Assembly: GCF_025698545.1 (NCBI RefSeq)
Contig: NC_068575.1
Coordinates: 49,051,980 to 49,115,979 of the forward strand
DNA length: 64,000 bases
Source: Gossypium raimondii
Taxonomy: Eukaryota; Streptophyta; Magnoliopsida; Malvales; Malvaceae
Reading direction: 5' to 3'
Under the pieces are notes generated by a model. It saw only the letters and a program-made list of their open reading frames with translations. It was not told the DNA's origin and did no database searches. Each line of letters begins with the position of its first letter. Position 1 is the first letter of the stretch. The position numbers were made by a program, and so were the translations under genes. Positions 11,660-57,400 of the stretch are shown here, piece by piece.

Positions 11660-12625
11660 TGTAACGCCCTAAAATTTGAATGTTTGATTGTGGAATTCTA
11701 TAGTAATTAAGTCTTTGCATATGTGGTTATTTGATTTGTTCATGTGTTTAAAGTTAGAAGTTTAAGTCGCTTCTTAAGAAAGTTTTTGCTATTTTAGTCT
11801 AAACTAATCTTTATCCTTGATTTTTGGCTTAAGCTCAATTATGTGTAAATCTATATTAAGGATGAGCTTGTTGGTTTAATGGTTAAGCCTTTGTATACCC
11901 TTTGGTCTTGTGTTCAAGCTGCGATGCATGCGATATGGAAATATTTTTGTTAATTGTTAGAATTCTGATCGGTAGTTTTAAAACAGGAATTAAATGTTCT
12001 TCTTTTCTTCTTTCCTTCTTCTTTTCACTTTCTTTCTTTTTCCTTTTTCTTTTTCTTTTTTTTTTGTTTTGTCCTTCTCTTCTTTCTTTTTCTCTTTATT
12101 GTCAGCTTAGAATCGTACTTCTTATTTGCTACTGCTATCAGGTAAGTTTGTTTCGTTAATTTTGTAAGTTCGGTTGTTCAATTCCTGAAATCGTTGTTGA
12201 TTGTTGGCACTGTGGCAAAATTTGACTTCTTGCTTAAACTATTTGAATCCTTTGTTTATAAGTTCGATTGTTATTCTTTAAGAGAAAGTTTCAAAGATAA
12301 CGATCCTTATAATGTCCTAGATTCTTGATTGCGGTGGTGCAGAGGTAATTATTACGTGATTTAGAATTTTCTTGTGTCGAAACGTTTCGACAGGATTGGT
12401 TGTGCGATAATCTTAGTGTTGTTTCGAATTATCGCTTAATTGGTTATGGATTGTTTGTTTTAGAACTCGAGAATCTTCTACGTTATTCCGGCTTCGAAAC
12501 TACTTCAGGTGCGTATCGAAAATCCAAGTTTTTACGAATTTCGAATGCTGGAAAACATGGCTGTCAACGCCACACAACTGTATGAGCCGCAAGGTTGTGT
12601 GCTAGGACGTATGGTAAGCAGTGTA
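11660..12625 (+). mobile_element. 3' LTR of the gypsy element, first part
   Basis: Begins TGTAACGCCC directly after the polypurine tract. It holds a pyrimidine-rich block at about 11999-12108 (only C/T with few exceptions) and a tRNA-like segment at about 11865-11925 (GGTTTAATGGTTAAG, then GGTCTTGTGTTCAAGC). It is interrupted at 12625 by solo LTR A and resumes at 15851. The two parts sum to about 2.1 kb. Confidence 0.65.
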
Positions 12626-13995
12626 TGTAACAACCTAATTTTTAGTGGTATCAGAAACAGTGATTTGGGATCACTAAATCTGACAAGTAAGCTTGAAAAT
12701 TTAATAAATTAATAATTATGGGTCAAGTGTGAATTTAGAAGAATTTTTGAATTAGTGAATTTTGTGATTTAAAAATAATTTAATTGGTAAATTGGGTCTA
12801 AAATAAGGTATTGAGACCTCGAATTCATAAGTCGAGCCATAAATAGTTTTATAAATATTTATGGAGTGTCATTGAGTTAGTTTAAAAGTTTCGTTAGAAA
12901 TTTTTAACGTTTGGATAGTCAATTAATTAAAAAGGACTAAATTGAAAATAGTGCAAAATTTGTTAAATTGTGATTAAATAGTTTAAGTTACTAATAAGAA
13001 GGGATTTAAAAGGAAATTAGGCCTAAAGTATATGGGCTGGACGGTTTGGGCAAGAAAATCAGCAAGAAAATAAGGAGAAATAAGGGCAAAATTGGAAATT
13101 TTACAAATTAAACATATAAAATAAAGACAAAATTGAAAAATCTAGAGATATCATCATTTTTCTTCAGAAAAAACGCCATAGGAGAGATTTTTCAAGCTGG
13201 TTTTTCATATTTTTCATCATGTAAGTTCAATTCTTAATTTTTCTTTGTAATTTTTCATGTTTTGTGACTTTTACAATTAAGTCCAACTATTGAATTCATT
13301 TGTTTTTGATTCTATGAATGATTTTGAAAGTTACCATGAGTGAGTAATGGATTTTTATGATGAATTATCATATATTTTAAGCTTTAATTTCATTATATTG
13401 TGATTTTATTAAGTGATTTTAGTAGAAAATGATTTTTAGGACGTAATTGTGAAAGAGTTAGGAATTGGGGTTTTGTACTGAAATTATGAATATCAAAGGC
13501 TGTATAGTAGTCTAAAATGATTAGACAAAGTGTTATTGGAGGAAAAAATTGTTCAATTAAAGTGTTAATTGAGTAGGGACTAAATTGTAAAAATTGTAAA
13601 TTTTGGGGTAAAAGTGTAATTTTGAAAATTGAAGGGCATAAATTGCGAAGTGAATTAGTATTGAATTAGATGCTAATGAATGGAAAACTTTATATTATAG
13701 ATCGGGAATTCGAAGATAAACGCGGAAAAGAGAAAATATCAAACTAGTCCCTGAACTTTTACAACTCCTACAAATTGGCCCAGGTAAGTTCATACGGCTG
13801 AATTTTTATGATTAATTGTTATTGTGGGAATGATATATTGTATCAGTTCGTATATTGTTGTTGAATTATGATTATGGTAAAAATGAAAAAAAAATGAGAT
13901 TGTTAGTTTAAATTAAAGGATACGCAGGATTGAGTACATACGTTCTGTAATCAGTGATGAATTGACGAATAAGCCCATGGTGAATCCATGGAAAA

Positions 13996-14180
13996 TTGTG
14001 AAAAGTAGGTATGGTGTTTCAGTGAAGAAAGCCATACTAAGTTGTGAAAAGTAGGTATGGTGTTTCAGTGAAGAAAACCATACTGAGTTGTGAAAAGTAG
14101 GTATGGTGTTTCAGTGAAGAAAACCATACTGAGTTGTGAAAAGTGGGTATGGTATTTCAGTGAAGGAAACCATACTGAGT
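13996..14180 (+). repeat. Minisatellite, 4 x 46 bp, each unit a hairpin (LTR A array 1)
   Basis: Four near-identical units start at 13996, 14042, 14088 and 14134, an exact 46-bp step. Each holds the inverted repeat GTATGGT ... ACCATAC (7 bp) around a loop that can also pair TTTC with GAAA. The last unit is slightly diverged (GTGGGTATGGTATTTC). Confidence 0.9.
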
Positions 14181-14515
14181 TATAGCATTGTAAAATATTC
14201 AAGCAAATCATGGCACCGGGCAAACGATGTACTCAAATCCGTAAGACGATTCTTAATTTGACAAGTATTTGTAAGTGCAATTGAAGCTAAATGTTGGAAT
14301 ATCAGTTGATATTTGATATTGAGCTCAATTGAGTAAATTCATTGTTTGAGATTGTGGTTGGCAGGAAATGTTGTATTATACTTTGAAATTTCATGAATGC
14401 TATGGTATGTTATTTTATATGAATGTTATTAAACTGAGATAATTGTGAAAATATAAATGTTTGAACAAAAGTTCTAATTTAGTGGAATATTGGATTGAGT
14501 ACTTTAGTTCAATGA

Positions 14516-14705
14516 CTCATACGCATTGACGAAAAAGACCATGGTTGGACCATGGCAATATGCGATATGTGATTTCCGTATAAGACCATATTCGAGATAT
14601 GGCATCAGTGTGATATATGCTTCCATGTAAGACCATGGTTGGGCTATGGCTTCGGTGTGTGATATGTGATTATGTGCAAGACCATAGTTATACCATGGCA
14701 TTTTA
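14516..14705 (+). repeat. Degenerate tandem hairpin repeats (LTR A array 2)
   Basis: About four units of roughly 50-60 bases, each centred on a short palindrome: GACCATGGTTGGACCATGGC, CCATATTCGAGATATGG, CCATGGTTGGGCTATGG and CCATAGTTATACCATGG. LTR B carries only one equivalent unit at about 18770-18788 (CCATAGTTATACTATGG), so the motif has been amplified in LTR A. Confidence 0.75.
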
Positions 14706-15850
14706 AAAAAAACAAAGTACTCAATTCCGTAACCGTTTCCTAAATTGATTAAGAAAAGGAAGAATTAGTGAAATTATATATTGTATAATTGTTATAAGAT
14801 GTTCGGTAAGAATTATTTTCTATGCCTATGAACTTACTAAGCTTACATAAGCTTACTCCTGTGTGATTAATGTTCTTTGTAGATTGATGTGAAATCGGTG
14901 GATCGGATCAACACATCAGGGCACACTATCCAGATTCTTCGGTAAATTTTATTGAGCATCTTAAGGTTTATATGGCATGTATAGGGTTTAATTGAAAGAA
15001 AGTGACGGTGTTATATACTTAGTTATCAACATTTTCCACTAAAACAGTTTTTGGACAGCAGCATTGATATGATTTTGAAAAATCACCAAAAATGGGGGAA
15101 ATTGAATTAGAAGCTGAGTGAGATATGAAATTAAATCTGAATGAGTCTATTTTCACATGAAAGAAATAGAGTAAGCAAAAGAGTTGTATATTTTTAGATA
15201 TTTGAATTTTAGTGAGACAGGGTCAGAATAGTTTTTGAAATCTTCTGTTCTGACTTTAGAAAATCATTAAAAATTGTACAGAAAGAATTGAAAGTTATAA
15301 TTTATATTTATAGATTCCTGAGTGAGTTTATTTTCAATAGAAACAAACGAGAATGTTATCTGAATTCTGTACAATGAGATAATTAATTTTTAGTGAAGAG
15401 GGGTCAGAGTTGTCGAACAATGAAACATATGAGACTTTAAAGAATAAACTGTACTAATTGGAAAAATTAAAATTCTAAAAATTTTATGGTAAGAATATAT
15501 ATGAGTCTAGTTTTAGGAAAAATTTACGGATCTAAATTTCGATTTTTGTAACTTGAGTTATAATTAAATTAGTGACTGTTGTGTAGGTGGACAGTTTTAT
15601 TATAAATAGTGAAAGGAATTGTTTTGATTTGTTTTAGTATTTGGAAAATTATTAATGTTCCTGGTTTGGACCCGAACCATTTCTATTGCATGATTTAGGG
15701 CCTCGAGATTCCTTTTTAGGTACATATTGAATGAACGTGAGTGAATTAATTTTAAAAGAAAATTTTTATGCTCCAAACTAGTAAGTTAAGTTAGGTAATG
15801 CCTCGTGCTCGACTCAGGCAACGGTCTCGGGTAAGGGGTGTTACAGTGTA

Positions 15851-17005
15851 ACTCACTGTCCACCAAGTAAAAGCCACGCGGTCGTGTGTCCAGACTGTGT
15901 GTGGCCTTGATAGTGCAAGGTTCACACGGGCCAAGGACACGGGCATGTGTCCAGGCCATGTAGCTCACTGTTTACAAACTAAGGATCACATGCCCAGAGG
16001 ACACAGCCATGTGAGACACACGGGCAAGCATACGGGTGTGTGCAGGCCGTGTGGGGCTGCACGAGTCAGCTACCTAGGCCGTGTGAGACCACATGGGTGT
16101 GTGGGCCAGTTTACAAAATTTTGCCATATCCCGAGCATCGCTCGAACCGAATACAAGCCTTCTGTGAGGCCATTTGAACTGAATTAAATTGTATAAACTG
16201 ATTTTCTATGATTTGAAACTTGAGAACTGATTTTCAGTGTGTATTGTGTTTGATTAATGTTAATGGATTTGATTTATTGTATTCGAGTATAAGCGGTATT
16301 TGAGTATTTGCATAAAACTTTGTTTTAATTGTCATGTAAAGTTTGCATATGCATCGGGTGGGAATTGAATCAGGAGGAAGTATTCTGTTATGAAACTGTG
16401 GATAACTCACTGGTATTTATGTTCTGGTCTGGCAGCTAGGCTGCATTATCTAAAACGTGTCAGACCGACACTGTATGGTGTGTAAGGCTGGAAGGGTAAT
16501 AAATACCCTATTTTGTGTGTTAGGTTGGTCGAAGATGGTGTGTAGCAGTTGACATTAAGTAATTGCATCTGTTATGTTCTGCAACTGACTACAGTTTGAA
16601 TTGTTATATGTCTATATGATTCTGATCTGTAACCGAATGAACTATTTCCTGATTCTGAATCAACATCTACACTTGGATATCTTAATTTTACCAATACCCT
16701 ATTGAATATATAAATAGTTGGTTCCTTTTGATATTTATTAATTCAATTATTGTTTAATGGATTTCAGGTAAATCACAGGCTTGAACGGGGTTATGTGTTT
16801 GCATCTTTTAGTATTATTAATAATGTTAGTTGTCTAGTAATTTCAGTTAGTTGGATGATAATCATGAAGTACTGATTTATCTTTATTAAAACTTTATATG
16901 ACTTTAAAGGAGTTTTAATATAAAGTGTAGAGTGTGTCTTGATTGTCATACATTGTAACTCTCCAAGTTTGGCCTTGTCATTTAAGCCGGTTATGGGGTA
17001 TTACA
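15851..17005 (+). mobile_element. 3' LTR of the gypsy element, second part
   Basis: Continuation of the LTR broken at 12625, resuming right after the GTGTA duplication and ending in GGGGTATTACA at 17005. Its first 260 bases (about 15870-16110) are packed with ACACGG/CCGTGT-type motifs such as ACACGGGCATGTGTCC and GGCCGTGTGGGG, a signature I associate with cotton gypsy LTRs. Small open frames here are by-products of this GC-rich repeat and are not genes. Confidence 0.6.
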
Positions 17006-17217
17006 ATGTGGTACAATTTCAAAGTGTCACGTTCAGTATTTTAACAACTAGACCAGTGGTTGAATAGGTTAGACCATCAATTCTCAATTCAACCAATTCA
17101 ATAGGTTCGACCACTAGACCAACAATAAATAAATAATTAAAAATCATAAAAATTTTAAAAAATATTAAATTGGTTTAATTGTTGATTTTTTTTATTTCAG
17201 TTTTCTATTTTACTAAT
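17006..17217. other. Short spacer between LTRs with a dispersed degenerate repeat
   Basis: The sequence is rich in GGTTCGACC/ACCAGTGGTTG/CAATTCAACC-like words that recur at about 20090-20160, 38820-39310 and 39750-39970. It continues seamlessly across solo LTR B (TTTCAA joined to TCAGTTTCC), which supports the insertion model. Confidence 0.45.
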
Positions 17218-17222
17218 TTCAA

Positions 17223-20084
17223 TGTAATAGCTGAATTTTCGGTGATGTCGAATGGTGATTCGAGATCACTAAATCTGAAAAATGAGTAGAAAATATTATT
17301 AATTTAGTGAGTATAAGTTAAATGTGAAGTTAGGAAAAATTTTGAAATAGTGAATAAAGTACTAGGAATAAATATTAAAATAATTAGAATCGAAAAATAA
17401 GGTATCGAAACCTCAAACTCATAAATCGAGCCATAAATATTTTTAGAAACATTTATAGAGTGTCAAATAGTTGGTATTAAAGTTTCGTTAGAAATTTTAA
17501 CGTTTGGATAGTCAATTAGCTAAAAAGGACTAAATTGAAAATAGTGTAAAATTTGTTAAACTGTGATTAAATAGCTTAAGTGACTAATGAGGAAGGATTT
17601 AAAAGGCAATTAGGCCCAAAGTATATGGGCTGGACGGTTGGGTAAGAAAAATCAGCAGAAGGTAAGGAGAAACAGGGGCAAAATTGGAAACTTAACAAAT
17701 TAGATATATAAAAGAAAGACAAAAGTGAAAAATCTAGAGATTTCTTCACAATTTATCAGCAAAAACGCCATAGGAGGTCTGAAACAAGCTGATTTTTTTA
17801 TATATTTGAATCATGTAAGTTTAATTCTTGATTATTTCTTCAAATTTTGTGATTTTGATACTTTTACAATTAGGTCCAACTAATTATTTCATTAGTTTTT
17901 GATTTCATGGCTGATTTTTAAAGTTACCATTGATGAGTGTTGGATTTTTATGATGAAAAACATGGAATTAAATCTTTAATTTTGTTATATGATGATTTTA
18001 TTAAGTAATTTTGATAGAAATTGATTTTTGGGACCTAATTTTGAAAAAGTTGGGAATTAAGGTTTGGTGTTGCGGTTTTGAATATGAAAGGCTATGTAGT
18101 AGTTTAAAATGGTTGGAAAAGGTGTTAATTGAGAAAAATTAGATCAATTGAGAGGTTAATTGAGTAGGGACCAAATTGTAAAAACTATAAAGTTTGGGGT
18201 AAAAGTGTAATTTCGAGAATTTAAGGGTAGAAACTATGAAATGAATTAGAATAGAATCAGATGCTGATGAATGAATAAATTTTCATTTTAGATCGAGAAC
18301 CCGAAACAAGTCGAGGAAAAGAAAAAGTAGCTGATTAGTCCCTGAACTTTTACAAATTCTGCAAATCGATACAGGTAAGTTCATATGGCTAAAATTTAAT
18401 GATTAAATGTTAATTTCATGAATTATATAATGTATGATGAAATATATTTATAGTTGAAATGAGAATAAAATAAAATGTAAAACAGAATAAATGATCAAAT
18501 TGAGAGCGAACGGATTTGAGTACTTCTGATCAGGTGACAAAGTGATAAGTGGTAGCTTTAGCTACACTTATCTGATCAAGTGACAAAGTGATAAGTGCTA
18601 AACTTATCTGATCAAGAGACAAAGTGATAAGTGGTAGCTTTAGCTACACTTATCTGATCAAGTGACAAAGTGATAAGTGCTACACTTATCTGATCAAGTG
18701 ACAAAGTGATAAGTGGTAGCCTAGCTACACTTATCTGATCAGGGACAAGTGATAAGCGATCATACGTAAGACCATAGTTATACTATGGCAAAGTGAAAGT
18801 GAAGTACTCAATTTTCCGTAACCGTTCCTTAATTTTGATCAAGGATGGTAAGTGACAAATGGGCCCAAAGGAATTATGGTAAAAGAATAAGTAGTAGTGA
18901 GTTTATACCAAGGAACTCACCAAAGATAGTGGTTGACAGGTAAACTTAGTAATGGTGTATAATGTATAAGTGTATAAATGTTTGGTAAGATTCATGTTTT
19001 GTGCCTATGAACTTACTAAGCTTTCTATAAGCTTACTTGTGTGTGTTTATTGTTTCATGTAGATTGACGTATTTATACATTCGGAGGATCGGATCTACAT
19101 CAAGAATCACACTATCCAGATTTACTATGGTAGATTTTGTTAAACAACTTTTTGGTTTATATGGCATGTATAGGGAATTGAAGTAAAAAGTAATAGAATG
19201 AATGATTAAGTATGCAAAGTAAATTTGCATGTGATGGTTGTGTTAGACATTGAAATATACATGTTTTTAGTTTGAAATGGTTGATTGGTTGAACTTCATT
19301 AGTATTTAAATGAAGTAGTTGAAATACTGGAATAGGTTGTGATTTGAAATTTGCAGGGAAGGTTAGATAATTATAAAGGGGTTATATTGAATTTTTTTTA
19401 AAAAATTACAATGAAACAGTTTTGGACAGCAACATTTATGTAACTTTGAAAACCACCAAAATGGTGGAAATTGAATTAGAAGTTGAGTGAGATATGAAAT
19501 TAAATCTGAATGAATCTACTTTCACATGAAAGAAATAGAGTAAGAAAAAGAGTTATATATTTTTAGATATTTGAATTTTAGTGAGACAGGGTAAGAATAG
19601 TTTCTGAAGTCCCCTGTTCTGAATTTAGAAATTCATTAAAAATTGTACAGAAGGAATTATGAATTATAGTTTATATGTATAGATTCCTTAATGAGTCTAT
19701 TTTCAGTAGAAATAAGTGGAAGCACCATATGAAGTTTGTGCAAGGAGAAAATTTAATTTTAGTGACAAGAGGTCAGGATAGTCAGTTACTGAAACAGGGG
19801 AGACTTTAACTAATAAACTGTATTAATTTGCTGAACCAAAAACTCTGAAAATTTTATGGTAAAAAGATAAATGAGTCTAGTTTCAGAGAAAATTTACGTA
19901 TCTAAATTTTGAGTTTTGTAGCTTGAGTTTTAATTAATTTAGTGACTGCTGCACAGGTGGACAGCTTTATTAGGAACAGTGAAATAACTTTTAAACGTAA
20001 ATTTTTATGCCCTGAACTTTTAAATTAAGTCAAGTAACATCTCATACTCGACTCCGGAAACGGTCTCGAGTAAGGGGTGTTACA
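17223..20084 (+). mobile_element. Solo LTR B (same family as A, TTCAA target duplication)
   Basis: Opens TGTAATAGCTGAATTTTCGG and closes GAGTAAGGGGTGTTACA, with perfect 5-bp flanking repeats TTCAA at 17218-17222 and 20085-20089. It aligns along most of its 2862 bases with LTR A (shared blocks include TATATGGGCTGGACGGTT, GTCCCTGAACTTTTACAA, GAACTTACTAAGC and TATGGCATGTATAGGG), so both come from one family. The donor-like CAG|GTAAGT is at 18375 and the acceptor TAG ends at 19062. The hairpin array between them has a sequence unrelated to array 1 of LTR A. Confidence 0.85.
18526..18743 (+). repeat. Alternating long/short tandem hairpins (LTR B array)
   Basis: Five units separated by CTGATCAAGTGACAAAGT. 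Long units at about 18543, 18625 and 18707 (82-bp step) hold GATAAGTGGTAGCT...AGCTACACTTATC, a stem of about 13 bp with one bulge (the last has a shorter loop). Short units at about 18589 and 18671 hold GATAAGT..ACTTATC-type stems. Confidence 0.9.
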
Positions 20085-45072: not shown

Positions 45073-48000
45073 TGTAACAAATCGTTTTTCTGTAGTGTTA
45101 GAAACAACGATTTTGGGACCACATTTCTGACAAGAGAGTCCATAGATGTAGTTAAATATAGTATCATAGTGAATCGTGGTTTAATCGATTTTATAAATTG
45201 ACCAGTTAGACAAAGTTCAAGTGGTGCATATCGAAAGTCAGTAGTTTTGGTAAATTAGGGATCGGGACCTCATTTTCATAAACCGAGCTCATAAATATTA
45301 TTTTTGAATATTTATGGAGCTATTATATGAGTGGGTTGAATTTTGGTTCAAAAATTGTATTGATTAGATAGTTAATTGAGGAAAAAAGGACTAAATTATA
45401 AAAGATGTAAAACTTAATCCTTATTTAATTATACTAACTAAATGGCTTAATTATTAAACATGAAAGGGTTTATGTTGTAATTAAACCATAATGTAACATT
45501 ATGGACGGTTGGCGGAATGTTTAACTTAAAATTTTATTAGTTAAAAATGATAAATTAATAAAATAAGGTAATTAAAAATAAAATAAAATGGTGTATCATC
45601 TTTCATTTTTGTTCCCACCACCAAAATTAGAAAACCATACCTTGGGGAGCCATTTTTAAAGCTTCCAAGGTTCAACCAACACAAAAATCTTTGCATGTAA
45701 GTCAAATTTAACTCTATTTTTAATAATTTTTATATTTTTTGAGATCGTTGCAGTTAGATCTAATTAACTCGCATCTCTGTTTTCAAAATTGTTAAAGATT
45801 TTAAAGTTTCTATTTATGTTAATTTAAGTTTTTGAATGTTGCTAGTAGATTTTGAAGCTTAGAAATGAAATAGGATTAACTTCATAAGTAAATTTTATTA
45901 GTTTTGAGTTTAAGAACTAAATTGTGAATATCTTCAAATTGATATAATTTTTTTGTAAATTTGATAATAGGAGGCTTTATATGGACATAATTGAAGTGGG
46001 TTTAAAATTTGGAGTTCAAATTCGGAAGATGTGATAAGTTCAGTTTTAGGGACTAAATTGAATAAAATACAAAAGTTTAGGGTCATTCAAATAATAAAAT
46101 CAAACTGATATATACTTATAATAGAATGATATAAGATGTTTGGAATTGATAAATTAAATTGAATTATTGAATAGATAGAAAATTAGATCAAATTGAAGTT
46201 GGTCGGGGAAATGACAAAATTTGTTGATTATTCCTTAGAGGGTTGTTTGCTTGTTGTCTTGACCAGGTAAGTTCATACGATATGTTTTTGTTAAATGGTT
46301 ATGCATTTATAATTATAATTGTAATTATATTTAATTAAAATTTTAATTTTTAAAATTCGCATACAAAAAGATGAGTGAGGGATTAAATTGAATATGATGA
46401 ATTGCAAATTGAAAAATTATGGAATTTACTTTAAATTGAACTGAAATAGAATATATTATGAGATGATGTGATGAAATGAGCTAGACTAATTCGATTTAGA
46501 CCGGTTGATAGTGATATGGAGTGAACTGAATAGATTCATAAATATTAGATATTATTTGAAATGTGAAATTGTGCTATGTGGTGATGAAATATACTATTAT
46601 AAATGAGAATATGAATTAGATGAATTTTATTTTGATATTGAAATGAAGAATTGGTTATAAACGAATGTGAAAATTGTTACCTTATTAATTGTTTAGGCAG
46701 GGTCGGGTATGGTTGGCATACCATAAGATAGGAAGAGTTCAGGGTTATACAACTACGTGGCAGGGAGTGCTGGGCACCCCATTTGTTGGTTATACCGACC
46801 AATGTTGGGTACATTTATTTGTCGATTTTTTCGGCCAGTGTAAGGCGCAATTTATTATTTCGGTTTATCCGATATGCAATGAGTGCCAAATTGGTGTGTT
46901 GGTTGTATCTGCGTATTCGTCCAAGTCCAAGTCATGTTAATAGAGAAATAAATGGTAAAAATGAAATATCCAATATTTGAAATAGTAAATGATGTGAAAT
47001 GAAAGTGAAATGTGTAATGGAATATGAAATTTATGGAATGAATTGGAAACATTGATTAATTATGTTCAATGAATCTATGAATTTGGAAATTGAGATGGAA
47101 TGTGATTCATAATTCGTATTATGAAATGAATTAGTAAATGACATTAAATTGACAATTGATATATGTATTTGGTATAAAGATGAATTAATATGAAATGGAA
47201 ATGAAGTTTATATGATTTTATATGAATTTGATTGAGAATTCAAACTATGAAATGAAAAATAATGTTTGGCATTAATTTGAAATGGGATGTATTACGGGTA
47301 AATAGATTGTATGATATGATTAAGATGATGAATTGATTAAATGATTATTTGTTTTATGAATGATAATGAAATGTGGAATTAAGTGAATTGAAATGTTATA
47401 TGGTATGATAAATGTTGAACTCACCTTTTTAATATTTGATTTGCCATGATAGGTAAACTTTATCAAGCTAAGTAGCATGTAGTGTATAATTATAACCTGA
47501 GGTAAGTTATTGGGTGTTAATACCTATGAACTTACTAAGCATTTGTAATGCTTACTCTCTTGTTTCCTTTTTCCCTGTAGTGACAACTTGCATAACGTGT
47601 CAAGAGGATCATCGAGAAGCTCGCACTATCTCGGTATTGATTATGTAGTCTTTTTATCGTTTAAAACTTGGTTTTGTGGCATGTATATAGGCGATTCATT
47701 TTTAGTCAATTTTGAATGTTGGTACTTTGGTAGCTTGATATGTGTGGTATGGTTTATGCCAACTTTGGTATTTAGAAGGTTAATGATAATGGCAAGTTTG
47801 AATGATATTATTTATATGATTTAGTTTGTGGTATGCAATGGTTAAGGCATGATTTGTATATAACTTGAGTTAATGCTTTGTTGGTGCCAATAAAGGCATT
47901 TTGGTTGTATGTTTAGATGGTTATATAAATGGAGGCTTTGATTTTGAAATGTGCATATGATATGTATTTAGTATTGATGTGAATGAATGTGTTTGAATGA

Positions 48001-48780
48001 GAATGATTGAGCTATTGTTTGATAAGTTTAACATAGTGAATAATGATGCATAATGGTTAAGTTGATTGAGAGATGAAGGGTACTTTAAGTGCATATAAAG
48101 TTTGGTATGAAATGCATGTAACATAACTTTGAAGTTGTTGAATTGTGGTTTGAAAATGACTGAATGTGGTATTTAGCATGTTGAAATTGGTTATTTATAG
48201 GTCTTATGATATGCTTATAAGCATCCTTGAATTTGGGTTATAGTTTTGAGCATGATTGGTACATAAAACTTATGATTTTAGCCATCTAGGTAAAAGTTCC
48301 GATACTAGGGACCAAGGTATCAATACTTGACCAAATGAACAGTGTTTTGAAAATGATAGAATGCCAAAACCATATTGATACCGATAATAATATTGATACC
48401 TATCATAAAAGTATCGGTATTTGTTACTTTAGTATCAATACCTAGTTCCAAAGTTTTAAAATTTTTTAGATTGGTCCTTAATCATACTCGAATCTATTAA
48501 ATTATGTTTGAATGTCCGATTTAGTCTCTCCTTTACTAATAACTTCTAATATGGATGAATTTGGATTAGTTTGATGATTTTAATTGAATTCAATATTATA
48601 ATTTGTGTGTGAATGTTCCAGTATTTGTTTTAGCATTCCTTAATTTGGGTTTGTAACTCCGTAATTGAGCTTCATAGCTTGCTCCATTTTTATTTACATA
48701 TCTACAAATAACCCACTAGGTTAGGATGCGAACACGACACTCAGAGGGTCTCGGCTCAGTTTTGTTTTAGTTGATTATAT
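45073..48780 (+). mobile_element. LTR D (related to solo LTRs A-C), 3' limit uncertain
   Basis: Opens TGTAACAAATCGTTTTTCTG and shares the 5' signature of LTR A (GTGTTAGAAACAACGATTTTGG versus GGTATCAGAAACAGTGATTTGG). It has TTATGGACGGTTGG, a donor-like CAG|GTAAGTTCATACG (GT at 46267), and the acceptor block CTATGAACTTACTAAGC...CCCTGTAG ending at 47580, then GCACTATCTCGG. Between donor and acceptor are inverted repeats such as GGTATGGTTGGCATACC (about 46706). No GTGTTACA end or matching TATGT duplication was found, so the right border is an estimate from loss of similarity. Confidence 0.55.
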
Positions 48781-49473: not shown

Positions 49474-52138
49474 TGTAACACCCCTTACCCGTATTCCTTA
49501 CCGGAACAGAGTATGAGGTATTACTAAATTTTAAAAAAAAAAATTCGACAGCATTCCTACTTATTTTTGCTTAAACCTCCTGCAAATTTACAACACATTC
49601 CAATATACCAACCAATTTCATTTGTATAAACACACATACAATTTAAGTATTAATAAACGCTACATTTAAAAGGGAACCATAACATATATTTACATGATGA
49701 TCCCACATTACATAAGTCGTTTATACATGCCATAAAATTTCGGAACACTAGTAGTAAAATACCCCAAATGTGAAGGATAGTGTAGATGATTGTCTGACTT
49801 CGTTCCAATTTCCGAGTTGTTGGAAGTCACTATAATCAAGATAAAAATAAAATCGAGTAAGAATATAGCTTAGTAAGTAAACACATGATAAATAAGTAAT
49901 TACTCCCATAACTACACCAAAATATAAACTTATTCATGAATAACTTTATTGTTTAGGCAATTTCCAGCAAGCTGTTTTTCTGCATCATATTCGCTAATTT
50001 ATTTTTATCTGGAGCTACAGGGCTCCAAATTGAGTTCCGTAAATTTTCCCTGAAACTAGACTCATATACCATTTCACCATAAAAATTTCAGAATTTTTGA
50101 CCCAGCCAATTAGTACAGTTTATTCATTAAACCTTCCCCTGTTTCACTGCCCAACGGTTCTGACCCTTCCTCACTAAAATTCACTTAACTCTCTGTACAA
50201 AATTTGAAAAATGGTTTCGCTTGTTTCTAATAAAAATAGACTCAATAAGGATTCCAGGTATATAAATTTCATGCCATAATTATTTTTGTACAATTTTTGA
50301 TAATTTTACAAAGTTAGAACAGGGGATCTCGAAATCAATCCAGCCCTGTTTCAGTAAAATTCAGATATCTCCAAAAATACAACTCTTTTGCTTATTCTAT
50401 TTCTTTCACATGAGAATAGATACATTCAACTTCAATTTCATATATTATTCAGCTTCCCATTCATTTTCCACCATTTATGGTGATTTTTCAAAGTTACCCA
50501 ATTGCTGTTGTTCAACACAGTTTATAATTAAATCGTTCCTTTTGCGTTTTTGATATTTTCTCTCATCTCATACATGGGTCGATTTAGTATTCAACTCAAT
50601 ATTTCCACCATATGGCAATATTCACCTTCCACACTTTTTCGTTGAACACTCGGAATGTTAACCGTTATCGGTGGATCCCGCACTTAGCACCACCACTGAA
50701 TCGGGAAATCAGCACTTAGCAACCCCTCGGGGGAATCAGCACATAGCAACCCCCTTTTCATTTCAAAGATACGGTGGATATCGCACTTAGCACCACCAAT
50801 GAAATCGGGGAATCAGCACTTAGCAACCCCTCGGGGGAATCAGCACATAGCAACCCCCTTTCACATTTCAAAGATATGGTGGATCACGCACATAGCACCA
50901 CCAATGAATCGGGGAATCAGCACACAGCAACCCCTTTTATATACAACATACTCCGGCTTATTCCGAGTGTTCAACCCATAAACCATATATTGCAACCCTT
51001 TATCACCTTTCCCGATTTAACAACATTTTTAGGATATTGCCAAACATTTATTTTAATTCCAAATAAATCTCAACATATATCAAATAATATCAAAATAATA
51101 TATTAAGTCACGTGTTTACTTACCTCGGTGCAAAATATCGTAATTTTGCACTTTACTCCACTATCTTTTCTTTTCCCCGTTTGATATACTCTTCACGTCT
51201 TTCTTGATCTATAATAGCAAATTTAACTCGTTTAATATTCACATTTATTAAAATAATCCACCACCCAACTTTTGAAAAATTACAATTTTGCCCCAAACTT
51301 TTGCATAATTACACTTTTGTCCCCAAGCTCGAAATTAAACTTCATCACTTATTCTTAAGTTTTATAACATGCTGAACATTTTTCCTTCTATGGCAACATC
51401 AAATTCCACTCCAACACATACTTTTGAATATTAATTATTTTTACCGATTATGTCTATTTACCCGTTTTCGCTTAAAATTGCTTAGCAAAAGTTGTTTAAC
51501 ATAATCTCTAGCTTTATATTCCACCATAAAACAGCAAAATAAACATTAAAAACGGTAGAATAAGCTAAACCAAATATGAACCCTAACACGAATTAATGGT
51601 AGAATAAGCTAAACCAAGTTACCGGGATTCCAAAAATACGAAGAACATTAAAAACGGGGCTTGGAATCACTTACTATGGAGCTTGAAAGCTTAAAAACCC
51701 TAAATATGGCTTCCCCTTTGCTGATTTCGTTCACCATGAAGAAGATGAGCATATTTTGCCATCTTTTTCCCATTTAATTCTATTTAATAACCAAATGACT
51801 AAAATGCCCCATTTAAAAAAAATCTATTTCACCCATTTCTTATGTCTATTTTGTCCATCAACTAACTAATGGTCTAATTACCACATAAAGAGCTCCAATT
51901 TAAAATTTCATAACAATTAGACACCTCTAAGATGTAGAACTCAACTTTTGCACTATTTACAATTTAGTCCTTTTGACTAAATTGAGTGCCCAAACGTCGA
52001 AATTTTCGAACGAAATTTTTACGAAAATTTTCCGTGAAATTGTAGACCATAAAAATATAATAATAACTATATTTTCCCTCGTCGGATTTGTGGTCCCGAA
52101 ACCACTATTCTGACTAGGCCCAGAATCGGGCTGTTACA
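49474..52138 (-). mobile_element. Solo LTR C (minus orientation, ACTTC target duplication)
   Basis: In its own sense it opens TGTAACAGCCCGATTCTGGG at 52138 and closes CGGGTAAGGGGTGTTACA at 49474. Perfect 5-bp flanking repeats ACTTC lie at 49469-49473 and 52139-52143. It shares blocks with LTRs A and B (GGACCACAAATCCGACGAGG-type start, TTACTAAGC acceptor block, TATGGCATGTATA, and the identical GGGTAAGGGGTGTTACA end). The donor-like GAG|GTAAGT has its GT at 51123, and the acceptor ends at 49830 (GATTATAG). No internal domain, hence a 2665-bp solo LTR. Confidence 0.85.
50669..50936. repeat. Tandem hairpin minisatellite in LTR C (about 104-bp period)
   Basis: Three higher-order units start at about 50670, 50773 and 50878. 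Each contains GGTGGAT..GCAC.TAGCACCACC (stem GGTGG/CCACC), then GGGGAATCAGCAC.TAGCAACCCC; the first two also have CGGGGGAATCAGCACATAGC followed by AACCCCC. The shared core GCACTTAGCA/GCACATAGCA sits in the loops. The array lies inside the putative LTR intron. Confidence 0.85.
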
Positions 52139-52973: not shown

Positions 52974-53087
52974 CAGGAAATCGCGTCCACATCAGCGAGT
53001 TGCTGACATGGCAACAAATCGCGCCCTCTAAGACGCGATTTGCTACCACATCAGCAACTCGCGCTAATGTAGACGCGATTTCCTGAG
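52974..53087. repeat. Subterminal inverted repeat of the MULE
   Basis: TCAGGAAATCGCGTCCACAT with GCGAGTTGCTGA and a following CAAATCGCG is mirrored by CGCGATTTG, TCAGCAACTCGC and TGTAGACGCGATTTCCTGA. This makes an almost perfect hairpin with arms of about 50 bases, partly overlapping the end of the left terminal repeat. The right side of the element lacks an equivalent. Confidence 0.8.
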
Positions 53088-53559: not shown

Positions 53560-53605
53560 ACATGTTTGGGCTGAGGCTATAAATTAGGCAGAAAATGTTC
53601 TCAGA

Positions 53606-56531
53606 ATGCATAAGTCACAACAGAAACAATTTAGAGAGGCTAAGAAGGTTAGAGTTTCAAATATGAGCGAATATATTAGTGTTGTTATTTACTACGATGG
53701 TGAGGTTTGCCACACCGAGAATGGTGTTATTTTTTTGTCGGAGAATACGGTGCAACTGGTTTTTAACCAGAACATAGATTTGACAGAATTTCGTAAAAGA
53801 ATTAGGCGTAAAATTTTCGGAACGACGCCAATGAAAGTTCTGTCTATCACGTATCGATTTTGTTCTTCTGTTGATCCGGTGACATATGACTCGTTCGACA
53901 TAAAAGGTGCTCGTAGCTTGGAGGCAATGGTGCAGACTCATCTTGCTAGTGGAGCACCTTATATTGAGTTATATGTACAATTTACATCGCCAACTGATGT
54001 ACTTGCGACCGGTGTTCGAGATGTATACACGACCCCTAGCCGACACTCGGTTAGCAAGTTACAAAATACGGAACAACCCATGTTCGGTAGCGGTGTCAAA
54101 TGCACATCCCTCGCAAGACACTCTGTTGGTGGATGGGACATGTACGTCGGTGGCTCGACATTTGATGCTGGAAATACGTACTGGGGAACGGCATCAAGTT
54201 CTAGTGGGTAGCAATCTACATCCAATTAGGGACGTTATCAAATGCCTAGAAGAAGGGATGACGTACTCCCTACGACGTCAACCGGTGAGGGGACCTCGTA
54301 CGTTACAGATGATTGTGGGTTAGAAGATGACTTCGATGTGGATCCACCTCGAGAGCCCGGGCAGGATGGTGCAGAAGTTGGCTTATTTTCTGAGCCGGAG
54401 CCTATTCCAACAGAACCTGAAGATGCTGAAAGGAGTTCAGATGAAGAAGAAAATCCACGATTTAGAGTATACTCACCTCCAGCCCACATGCATAATGTTG
54501 ATCTGTCCGCAGATAATGCGTTAGAGTTTCCAGATCTACCACACTGGTTGCGTGATTGTACAAGTTCGGGGGTAGATTCAGGTGAATTTGAAGTTGGTAA
54601 TCAGTTTACCAACAACGATAGTTTTATTGGTGCTTTGAAACAATATAGCATCAAAAACAGCGTTAACTACCACGTCGTTAAATCCAAATCTGATAAGTTT
54701 GAGGTGAAGTGTGTGGTCCAAGACGGTACATGTTCATGGAAAATCTACGCCTCGTTAAGGAAAATAACAGGGTTGTGGGAGATTAAAAAGTACCAAGGTC
54801 CACATACATGTGCTACAAGTATAGTATTGACGGTTTCTGAATAATACTTTTATTATGCAATGTTGCATTATTTAATGTACTCGGTTTATAGGTGTTTCAC
54901 AAGATCATCCTAAGATGGATTCAGCTATGTTAGCTAGCTTGATACTGCCTACGGTAAAAGCAGATCCCAATACTTCAGTGTCGGTGTTAATTGCCAATAA
55001 TTGTAGCCAAATGGGGTACACGCCCTCTTACCGCAAGGCTTAGATAGCTAAGCAAAAGGCGTTGGAGAAGATGCATAGTGGGTGGGATGCCTCATATAAT
55101 GAAATATGGCAGTGGTTTCAGGTGCTAGAGAGATACGTCCCAGGTGCCATCACAGACCTTGAAATGGAACATGCATACTACAACGACCGATTGCTACGTG
55201 GATATCAAGTGTTCAAACGCCTGTTTTGGACCTTTAAGCAATGCCGAGACGCATTTCCATACTGCAAGCCGTTGGTACAAATTGACGGTACCTTTATGTT
55301 CCGTAGGTATACTCATCGGCTATTGCTTGCAGTGGCACAGGATGGCGGTGGGAGAATTCTTCCAATTGCATTTGCAATAACACCGGGGGAGTCGTCTGAT
55401 GACTGGGATTTCTTTCTCTTTAAGTTAAGGAGGCATGTGTGCCCCCAACCTGATATCTATGTTATTTTAGATCGGGGCACCGGTATACTAGCTGCATTTG
55501 ATCGACAGGGAAGCTTATGGCAGCGCACACACCATAGATATTGCCTAAGACACATTGCTTCGAACTACTACAGGCAATATCCATCTAAGAGCGAACGACG
55601 ACAAGTGACCGACATGGGTATTTAGTCTATATCTGTGTTATTTCGTTAGTCAATTTGAATTAGTTTTATTGGTAGAAGTGGTATAAATTATTCGCTATGA
55701 TCTTATATTGGCAGGGTATGAAATAAATAAAGATCGTTTTCACGAGATGTTGTCAATTTTACGTTCAATTAACGGAGAAGGGGCAGACTACCTTTGTAAC
55801 ATACGTTTCGAACAGTGAGCATAATCATACGACGGTGGCCTACGATATGGCCATATGATGTCGAACCTGGCTGAATGTATCAATTTTGTTCTTAAAGGAA
55901 CGCGCCATCTACCGATAACATCGGTTGTGCGAGAGACATATTTTCGTTTGGCGGCGCTATTTCCAAAGCGAGCAGCAAGTTATGTAGGCCAGATGCAGGG
56001 AGGACATGTATGGTACAGTAAGGTAGTTCAAGAAATTAACAAGGCCAAGACGAGGGCAAACACCATGCACACGATCGAGACAATTAATGGTTTCGCGTGA
56101 CAGAGTTTGACAGACCGCACCAAGGTGTTGTTGGCGGGCAATATCGTGTACACTTGCGAAATAGGACTTGTGACTGTGGGATGTTTGATGCACTTCATTA
56201 TCCATGTGCGCATGTTATTGCAGTTTGTTAGAATCTCCGTCTGGATCCGATGAGTTATGTGGACGAAGTTTACAAATTAGAAAACATGTACAACGTCTGG
56301 AGACACGTTTTCCCACCGGTCCCAGATGAACGTAAGTGGCCGCCCGTGTCTCTTGCTCCTTTTAAGCTGTTACCGGATAGAGAATTATGTCACAAACCAA
56401 AGGGTCGAGCTTGCTCGACTAGAATACGTAACAATATAGATATCCGAGAAACAGCCAGTCAAACAAAATTATGCAGATGGTGTAGGAATTCAAGCCATAC
56501 AAGTCGATCATACCCTAATCACAATAGTTGA
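53606..56531 (+). pseudogene. MuDR-type (MURA-like) transposase, inactivated
   Basis: Three exons: 53606-54818, 54892-55617 and 55715-56531. The alternative start is the MSEYIS methionine at 53663. Domains in order: N-terminal MuDR domain (VIYYDGEVC); transposase DNA-binding domain with DCTSSGVDSGEFEVGNQF and DGTCSWKIYASL; DDE core with LVQIDGTFM (first Asp), VILDRGTGI (second Asp) and SNLAECIN (Glu); a SWIM zinc finger (CDCGMFDALHYPCAH); and a C-terminal zinc knuckle whose third Cys is changed (CRWCRNSSHTSRSYPN). Stops: TAG 54209, TAG 54227, TAG 55041, TGA 55816, TAA 55822, TAG 56229. A small deletion shifts the frame near 56075, with a TAA just after it. The chemistry is cut-and-paste transposition with 9-bp duplications. 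Confidence 0.9.
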
Positions 56532-56799: not shown

Positions 56800-57400
56800 T
56801 TAGTTTAGGTTTTAATTAAATTAGGTTAGGGTTTTAAGTTTAGGGTTTAAGGTTTTAATTTAATTAGATTAGGGTTTTTAAGTTTAGGGTTTAGAGTTTT
56901 AATTTAATTAGGTTAGAGTTTTTAAGTTAATTAGGCTAGGGTTTTTAAGTTAAGGGGTTAGGGTTTTAATTTAATTAGGTTAGGATTTTAATTAAATTAG
57001 GTTAGGTTTTTAAGTTTAGGGTTTAGGGTTTTAATTTAATTAGGTTAGGGTTTTAAGTTAATTAGGTTAGGTTTTTAATTAAATTAGGTTAGGATTTTTA
57101 AGTTTAGGGTTTAGGGTTTTAATTTAATTAGGTTAGGATTTTTAATTTTAGGGTTTAGGTTTTAATTAAATTAGGTTGGGTTTTTAAGTTTAGGGTTTAG
57201 GGTTTTAATTAAATTAGGTTAGGGTTTTTAAGTTTAGGGTTTAGAGTTTTAATTAAATTAGGTTAGGATTTTTAAGTTTAGGGTTTAGGGTTTATGGTTT
57301 TAATTAAATTAGGTTAGGGTTTTTAAGTTAAGGGGGTTAGGGTTTTTAAGTTTAGGGTTTAAGGTTTTTTAATTAAATTAGGTTAGGGTTTTTAATTTAA
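56800..57400. repeat. TTTAGGG-rich minisatellite between the two MULE genes
   Basis: About a dozen units of roughly 45-50 bases built from TTAATT(T/A)AATTAGGTTAGGG and TTTTTAAGTTTAGGGTTTAGGG. Many units contain two consecutive TTTAGGG words, the plant telomere repeat. Unit length varies by loss or gain of subrepeats. It carries no ORF and separates the convergent genes. Confidence 0.85.

Follow-up and report, generated by a model that had tools for sequence, protein, structure and literature searches.

Long terminal repeat (LTR) retrotransposons of plants are generally without introns, Ogre and EVADE being the exceptions named in the accessible part of PMC12786077. According to the available sections of PMC3735527, BARE1 of barley keeps separate RNA pools with a spliced Gag RNA, and BARE is the demonstrated case of a plant retrotransposon that splits its transcript between translation and replication; the LTR palindromes of Sireviruses have been discussed as transcription-factor sites (PMC2829016, in the part available). 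Here, we analysed 64,000 nucleotides of Gossypium raimondii (NC_068575.1, positions 49,051,980 to 49,115,979; hereafter the window, to which all positions refer), which contain four long LTRs, named A to D. An original prediction, made from the letters alone, had described in each of them an intron-like module with inverted-repeat sequence. We propose, with a probability of roughly 0.55, that these LTRs bear leader introns, that the spliced RNA would be the Gag mRNA and that the unspliced RNA, carrying a domain of intron 2, would be the genome.

Intron 2 lies inside each LTR (Table 1), and the donors (AG/GTAAGT), the acceptors ending in TAG and the lengths given for it in the original prediction proved exact in all four. 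The acceptor module starts with CTTACTAAGC (at 14833 in A, 19012 in B, 49877 on the minus strand in C and 47531 in D) and, with the acceptor AG left unspecified, was searched for as CTTACTAAGC, 75-105 nt and CACTATC. The genome holds 5,613 + 5,616 = 11,229 such places and none for the reversed control. The donor octamer AGGTAAGT has five sense-strand occurrences across the four LTRs, two of them in D, and none on the antisense strand, whereas dinucleotide shuffles contained it 0.33 times on average and twice at most. Beyond the window, 16 acceptor-anchored loci (L072-L087; every fifth of 100 listed places on contig C1, minus four already in the set) were read over the 1.45 kb preceding the module. 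Eight carry AGGTAAGT 450-1450 nt upstream of the module (0.32 in shuffles), three more (L076, L081 and L086) have TGGTAAGT at a comparable donor position, and L073 and L074 show by eye a GTAAGT without the preceding AG; among the 16, no donor could be named in L077, L082 and L083. On the acceptor side, these 16 loci were combined with 12 loci anchored on the primer-binding site (PBS) and the four window LTRs. The first NAG past module position +24 is TAG in 30 of these 32 loci, and in 27 of the 30 it falls at +45 to +56 behind 61-91% pyrimidines; an earlier TAG precedes the expected position in L073, L079 and L087. Furthermore, AGGTAAGTTCA is kept in 37 of 39 A-type copies, a count for which the query contained the site and only best hits were scored. 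As a separate observation, the module (14833-14860 and homologues) opens with a mini-hairpin, AAGC..GCTT, in 25 of 32 rows, with T-A (14 rows), A-T (5) or T-T (6) as the next inner pair; it would cover a branch-site-like TACTAAG.

Composition switches at the same sites. Over 30 of the 32 loci (L077 and L085 being skipped), predicted exon 3 contains 7 ATGs in 1621 nt, compared with 71 in 1566 nt of the intron sequence that leads up to the module; the last 70 nt of predicted exon 2 contain 5 in 1470 nt, compared with 54 in 1470 nt directly after the donor (21 loci with a donor). The exon/intron ratios for ATG are 0.10 and 0.09, while other orders of the same letters range from 0.43 to 2.47, except GTA in exon 3 (0.14); as the rows are related by descent, binomial significance would be overstated. 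GC amounts to 43% and 38% in the predicted exons versus 23% and 20% in the intron, and T to 28% and 25% versus 45% and 44%. For example, exons 2 and 3 of LTR A together have a single ATG, with 13 in intron 1, 41 in intron 2 and 18 in the remainder of the LTR. At the level of sequence, conservation, the switch in ATG and composition at the sites and the acceptor context strongly support intron 2 as a predicted spliceosomal intron.

This intron makes better sense within a set of three predicted leader introns than by itself; a likely first intron and an acceptor before gag go beyond the original prediction, as do the closing stems described below. The transcript leader would be split by two introns fully inside the LTR and by a third that starts at the exon-3 donor of the LTR, spans the PBS and ends at an acceptor immediately upstream of the gag ATG. 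In 8 of 11 PBS loci (L050-L054 and L057-L059), T-rich sequence closed by TAG lies 2-19 nt upstream of the likely gag ATG; among these 11, to which L049 does not belong, it is missing in L048 and L055, and L056 is degraded. The PBS followed after 95-125 nt by TATAGTAA was found at 302 + 313 = 615 exact genome sites (control 0). The candidate third donor, GGTA, stands 2-14 nt past CACTATC in 15 of 16 rows. A splice from exon 3 to gag would remove the PBS along with whatever remains of the LTR. The spliced RNA would then have a short leader nearly free of ATG and no PBS, and could serve for translation, though copying it would give no complete element. The unspliced RNA would retain the PBS and the intron-2 domain, in which the closing stem is joined often by a palindrome and usually by a hairpin array, and could serve as the genome. 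Near the primer site we also observed that CTATACATGCCATA, just past the PBS and common in the list of pre-gag acceptor sites, is the exact reverse complement of the LTR motif TATGGCATGTATAG (about 14986-14999 in LTR A; GCATGTATA in 15 of 16 rows), and long-range pairing of the two around the primer site is possible.

The original prediction had described inverted-repeat arrays within intron 2, and TRF (a tandem-repeat finder) found them with periods of 46 (A), 82 (B) and 104 (C). Of the 16 acceptor-anchored loci, 11 also have an array within the intron by the same program. Array units vary by lineage, and include GTAGC TTCG GCTAC (23 bp), CCATGTC TGG GACATGG (50 bp), AACCC TTAT GGGTT (42 bp) and TAGAT..GCTC TTAG GAGC ATCTA (36 bp); the 46-bp unit is present in two to six copies in all 35 A-type introns read. 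The claim that units are unrelated went too far for A and B, since a hairpin of the second module of A (14489-14740) is shared with B. In many loci the array is enclosed by a closing stem, CCCG-n-TTGAAC...GGATAC / GTATCC...GTTCAA-CGGG, with other types elsewhere (GTTGAACACTCGGAAT in C; GAGTAC in A, B, L079 and L083). Such a stem was assigned in 11 of the 16 acceptor-anchored loci, weakly in L073, and not in L074, L077, L082, L084 and L085. Just inside GGATAC, 9 of 13 loci have a perfect palindrome, 10-16 nt long and with several sequence versions among the loci, compared with 683 of 30,000 stretches drawn at random from these introns; one of at least 10 nt was not found in L059, L073, L078 and L080. 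A motif near TTTGTTGCGAAC was also seen to recur in the structured domain of L073, L076, L079, L083, L086 and L087; it spans several unrelated lineages and is a possible protein-binding site.

RNAalifold recovered only part of the closing stem from mixed stems, and pairs were therefore counted on 13 motif-anchored rows. Of all cells, 89.3% pair, compared with 83.2% in shuffles and 30-40% when the arms are slid, and 19 cells are double-changed versus 7.5 in shuffles (0/500); the rows were selected for stem presence and a single bulge base was omitted, both of which favour structure. Outside these rows stand loci with other stem types (A, B and C of the window, L065, L066, L079 and L083), C-type L084 (no pair found by the script), D of the window and the A-type copies, and loci with no such stem or too little sequence (L051, L052, L053, L057, L058, L061, L074, L077, L082 and L085). 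Including its stem, the domain folds with a mean z of -3.36 (15 of 21 below -2), compared with 0.03 in equal-length flanks on the 5' side (0/14) and -0.55 on the 3' side (1/15). Short perfect hairpins in intron 2 number 85 versus 40.2 expected (24 sequences). The array regions of A, B and C fold better than dinucleotide shuffles (z of -6.5, -5.7 and -3.0), but D does not. Under a stricter control of shuffled units tiled into arrays, A (46-bp array, z -3.4) and B (z -2.6) were still beyond chance, but C not clearly; L062 and L069, whose membership in such introns is not established, also passed. From the folding with the stem, compared with the interior alone and with the tiled-unit results, the closed domain emerges as the well-supported feature, and the arrays as often, not always, structured. 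Likewise, the proposed selection for a foldable insert finds support in the stem-closed domain, through its folding and covariation, and weaker support in the arrays alone, but none in D, where the predicted hairpin is real and short and its region folds no better than shuffles.

Lying in a predicted intron, the domain would be present only in unspliced RNA, and it most likely tags this RNA for dimerisation and packaging, the latter being the favoured among the proposed roles. A more specific version, in which a stem, a kissing-type palindrome and interchangeable hairpins form an identity signal of the genome RNA within the LTR intron, the array sequence being free to change and only its hairpin character being kept, is tentative and in our estimate rather less likely than not. 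The turnover of array units might mean that many small hairpins of any sequence suffice, or that reverse transcriptase slips at hairpins.

Several results weigh against the leader-intron reading. The acceptor module is present in 12 of 24 PBS-anchored loci, in two of these with one base changed, and was not found in the other 12 within the stretch read (only 1.5 kb for L048-L059). GGTA is lost in L057 and present in 26 of 35 A-type copies, and as it is a weak donor, the junction of exon 3 to gag is the least certain. Genome searches for exon-exon junctions returned 0 intron-less copies, both of the A type (up to 2 mismatches) and of the C type (up to 3 mismatches, versus 623 unspliced junctions). 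No array was found by TRF in the intron of L076, L077, L082, L086 and L087 (5 of the 16 acceptor-anchored loci). In the closing stem, pairs with a double change (7 versus 4.7; 48/500) and further pair types (132/500) lie within the shuffles, and the asymmetry of G.U over A.C (20 versus 12 cells) does not separate selection on RNA from selection on DNA. With the stem and palindrome cut off, the interior of the domain has a mean z of -1.92, 7 of 21 being below -2. The array of C reaches z -1.4 under the tiled-unit control (19/200 shuffles equal or better), which L061, L064, L065, L066, L070 and L071 fail as well, and the region of D folds at chance (z of -0.08 and 0.06). Finally, short perfect hairpins also exceed expectation upstream of the donor (26 versus 16.5; 10 sequences), so that this control is itself raised.

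Intron-less copies are expected to be missing if unspliced RNA is replicated, and equally so without any splicing. Their absence in the A and C types would thus also suit an account in which the conserved blocks merely look like splice sites and act as DNA signals for the promoter, polyadenylation or something else, as LTRs must carry transcription and polyadenylation signals. Such an account sits badly with the donor and acceptor consensus, the T-rich context and the switch in ATG and composition precisely at the predicted sites, as well as with an acceptor-like site immediately before gag, and we judge it quite improbable. If the introns are real, the arrays could nevertheless be neutral, growing as minisatellites through slippage or template switching of reverse transcriptase at hairpins, with the stem as a relic or a DNA-level palindrome. 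The variable copy number of the 46-bp unit, the modest folding of the interior, the tiled-unit results, the lack of arrays in D and in 5 of 16 loci, and two arrays outside such introns that pass the tiled-unit control (window 56803-57346 and L063) are all in keeping with this. However, compensatory changes maintain the closing stems and the domains outfold both flanks within the same introns, which leaves neutrality of the arrays an unlikely explanation in our view.

Real introns are also assumed in a reading under which the domain, like the RTE and MTE elements of IAP and MusD, acts not in packaging but in the export of unspliced RNA from the nucleus or in its controlled retention. Export shares all the sequence evidence with our reading, an unspliced RNA bearing strong splice sites would need a nuclear exit route, and the accessible part of PMC12786077 offers parallels in the structured export elements of mouse LTR elements and in the structured leader of a plant pararetrovirus, which recruits export factors. 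By itself, however, it gives no reason to expect the palindrome that 9 of 13 loci have at a fixed position, and we give it a low probability. It is very unlikely that the arrays act in small-RNA evasion or as decoys, turning over rapidly under silencing pressure: unit sequences do shift while a short foldback is often kept, but stems of about 4-8 bp are, by general knowledge, too short for the usual Dicer substrates.

The retrotransposon nature of the carriers is established by several lines of evidence. Each of A, B and C runs from TG to CA as a single unit, flanked by an exact target duplication, and is thus a solo LTR. The sequence TGGTATCAGA, which we take to be the initiator-Met PBS, follows GGGGTGTTACA within 8 bases at 766 + 778 = 1,544 places of the 751-Mb genome (reversed control 0); TGGTATCAGAGC is likewise presumed to be an initiator-Met site. 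C-type relatives are 99-100% identical to a 201-nt query in 40 of 40 scored places (1,686 candidates), and 26 same-strand neighbour pairs with a spacing of 6.0-8.1 kb were seen by eye among 100 listed of 623 donor places. Furthermore, two loci have a gag frame beyond the PBS with a match to Pfam PF03732 (1.1e-16 in L054 and 1.7e-18 in L050), and the Ty3_capsid profile scored above its cut-off in L050 and below it in L054. Judged by these sequences, the LTRs belong to full-length elements of an abundant Ty3/Gypsy-type retrotransposon group, presumably the Tekay/Del chromovirus lineage. A unit-sized non-LTR element was rejected because C-type copies stand in same-strand pairs and the PBS follows the LTR end. 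Another idea, that LTR A is a small element whose primer site (TGGTATCAGA close to the 5' end) is internal, was discarded as B, C and D are without such a site there and LTR-plus-PBS sites exist elsewhere. No relatives of window 14750-15620 were found in plasmids or phages, and the LTR-end pattern had no match in viral contigs.

Flanking LTR sequence had been described as alignable, which self-BLAST bore out for A and B (77-83% identical, in pieces), but C matched A over one 80-bp piece and a block of about 530 bp only, and D matched A and B over about 166 bp; whole-LTR alignment failed within intron 2. The best-conserved stretch between A and C (76%), block X (15034-15614; 19406-19984; minus 50523-49991), follows exon 3 in A and B but sits within intron 2 in C, and has therefore moved relative to the splice sites. 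As a candidate structured element it was dropped, its folding being at chance level (z of -0.91 for A and 0.16 for C). At the start of the LTRs, the first 60 bases (12626-12690, 17223-17290 and minus 52138-52070) can fold as a nested hairpin, with apparent covariation of the arms among A, B and C by eye. LTR A apparently sits within another repeat, with GC-rich stretches 3' of A (12500-12625 and 15851-17006; by eye).

Table 1 Coordinates of the LTRs, predicted introns and exons, and structured modules in the window
Feature	Position	Strand	Details
LTR A	12626-15845	+	Solo LTR; TG...CA ends; exact 5-bp target duplication GTGTA
LTR B	17223-20084	+	Solo LTR; TG...CA ends; exact 5-bp target duplication TTCAA
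LTR C	49474-52138	-	Solo LTR; TG...CA ends; exact 5-bp target duplication GAAGT
LTR D	45073-48680	+	5' end clear; 3' end decayed, unrecognisable, coordinate approximate
Predicted intron 1, A	13221-13700	+	Candidate sites only; donors of A to D T/GTAAGT or A/GTAAGT
Predicted intron 1, B	17815-18291	+	Candidate sites only
Predicted intron 1, C	51674-51209	-	Candidate sites only
Predicted intron 1, D	from 45697	+	Candidate sites only; acceptor uncertain
Predicted exon 2, A	13701-13783	+	ATG-poor, GC-richer than intron
Predicted exon 2, B	18292-18374		ATG-poor, GC-richer than intron
Predicted exon 2, C	51208-51124	-	ATG-poor, GC-richer than intron
Intron 2, A	13784-14882	+	Donor AG/GTAAGT; acceptor TAG; 1099 bp
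Intron 2, B	18375-19062	+	Donor AG/GTAAGT; acceptor TAG; 688 bp
Intron 2, C	49830-51123	-	Donor AG/GTAAGT; acceptor TAG; 1294 bp; includes block X
Intron 2, D	46267-47580	+	Donor AG/GTAAGT; acceptor TAG; 1314 bp; no tandem array
Predicted exon 3, A	14883-14941	+	CACTATC, then weak donor GGTA
Predicted exon 3, B	19063-19129		CACTATC, then weak donor GGTA
Predicted exon 3, C	49829-49763	-	CACTATC, then weak donor GGTA
Predicted exon 3, D	47581-47633		CACTATC, then weak donor GGTA
Structured module 1, A	13928-14245	+	Stem GAGTAC/GTACTC enclosing 46-bp array (13996-14181); z -9.99, interior -8.70
Structured module 2, A	14489-14740	+	Stem ATTGAGTACTTT/AAAGTACTCAAT enclosing CCATGG-type hairpins; z -2.67, interior -1.68
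Structured module, B	18510-18825	+	Stem GAGTACTTC/GAAGTACTC enclosing 82-bp array (18525-18756); z -7.29, interior -5.84
Structured module, C	50638-50979	-	Stem GTTGAACACTCGGAAT/ATTCCGAGTGTTCAAC enclosing 104-bp array (50669-50935); z -3.81, interior -1.87
Single short hairpin, D	46706-46723	+	Surrounding region folds at chance

Elsewhere in the window, the sole Rfam match at the gathering threshold lies outside the LTRs and is to the microRNA precursor family MIR7486 (52987-53071, minus strand, E 1.7e-12). Degenerate TTTAGGG-like telomere-type repeats occupy 56803-57397, and the open frames beside them (53588-55625) resemble what we take to be a MULE-type transposon.

No description of an intron inside a plant LTR was found in the literature by title or abstract start, most subscription papers lying outside the search, and for this reason the novelty of the LTR-embedded intron is likely rather than proven. 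If true, the proposed arrangement would explain the great length of these LTRs and their odd minisatellites, and the genome would hold thousands of portable promoters with first exons. With more than 11,000 exact acceptor modules in one genome, it is directly testable on long-read RNA.

The packaging and dimerisation signal of retroviruses lies downstream of the major splice donor, is structured, occurs only in unspliced RNA and has a palindromic hairpin near the 5' end. The cotton LTRs resemble it in a structured region with a palindrome that is, here by prediction, confined to unspliced RNA; they differ in that the intron is contained entirely in the LTR, a long way upstream of the PBS, and has a variable hairpin array, and in that Gag would come from the spliced RNA. 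The pregenomic leader of caulimoviruses, according to the sections of PMC5902531 available, is similar in its large stem-closed structure with a splice donor, a packaging signal and a Met-tRNA primer site, but ribosomes shunt over that structure, whereas splicing would remove the one described here. Sireviruses likewise have repeated palindromic units in plant LTRs, but these have, with the exception of one element, a common CGG-CCG core and stand upstream of the TATA box, with no intron in the part of PMC2829016 accessible. The cotton array units listed above show no common core. Ogre, EVADE and other spliced plant elements are alike in that functional introns yield different RNAs, but their introns lie in the internal coding region (available parts of PMC12786077, PMC6317226 and PMC7730604). 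The cotton introns are not of the BARE or EVADE type inside gag-pol, since introns 1 and 2 are inside the LTR and the predicted third ends before gag. BARE1 comes close as a plant LTR element in which splicing sets the Gag mRNA apart from the genome RNA, with a U-rich intron in GC-richer exons; its intron, however, is 104 nt long, lies near the end of gag and frameshifts pol, the element is copia and not gypsy, and the accessible text of PMC3735527 describes neither an LTR intron nor removal of the PBS. A leader split by LTR introns would, if true, be a different answer from that of BARE.

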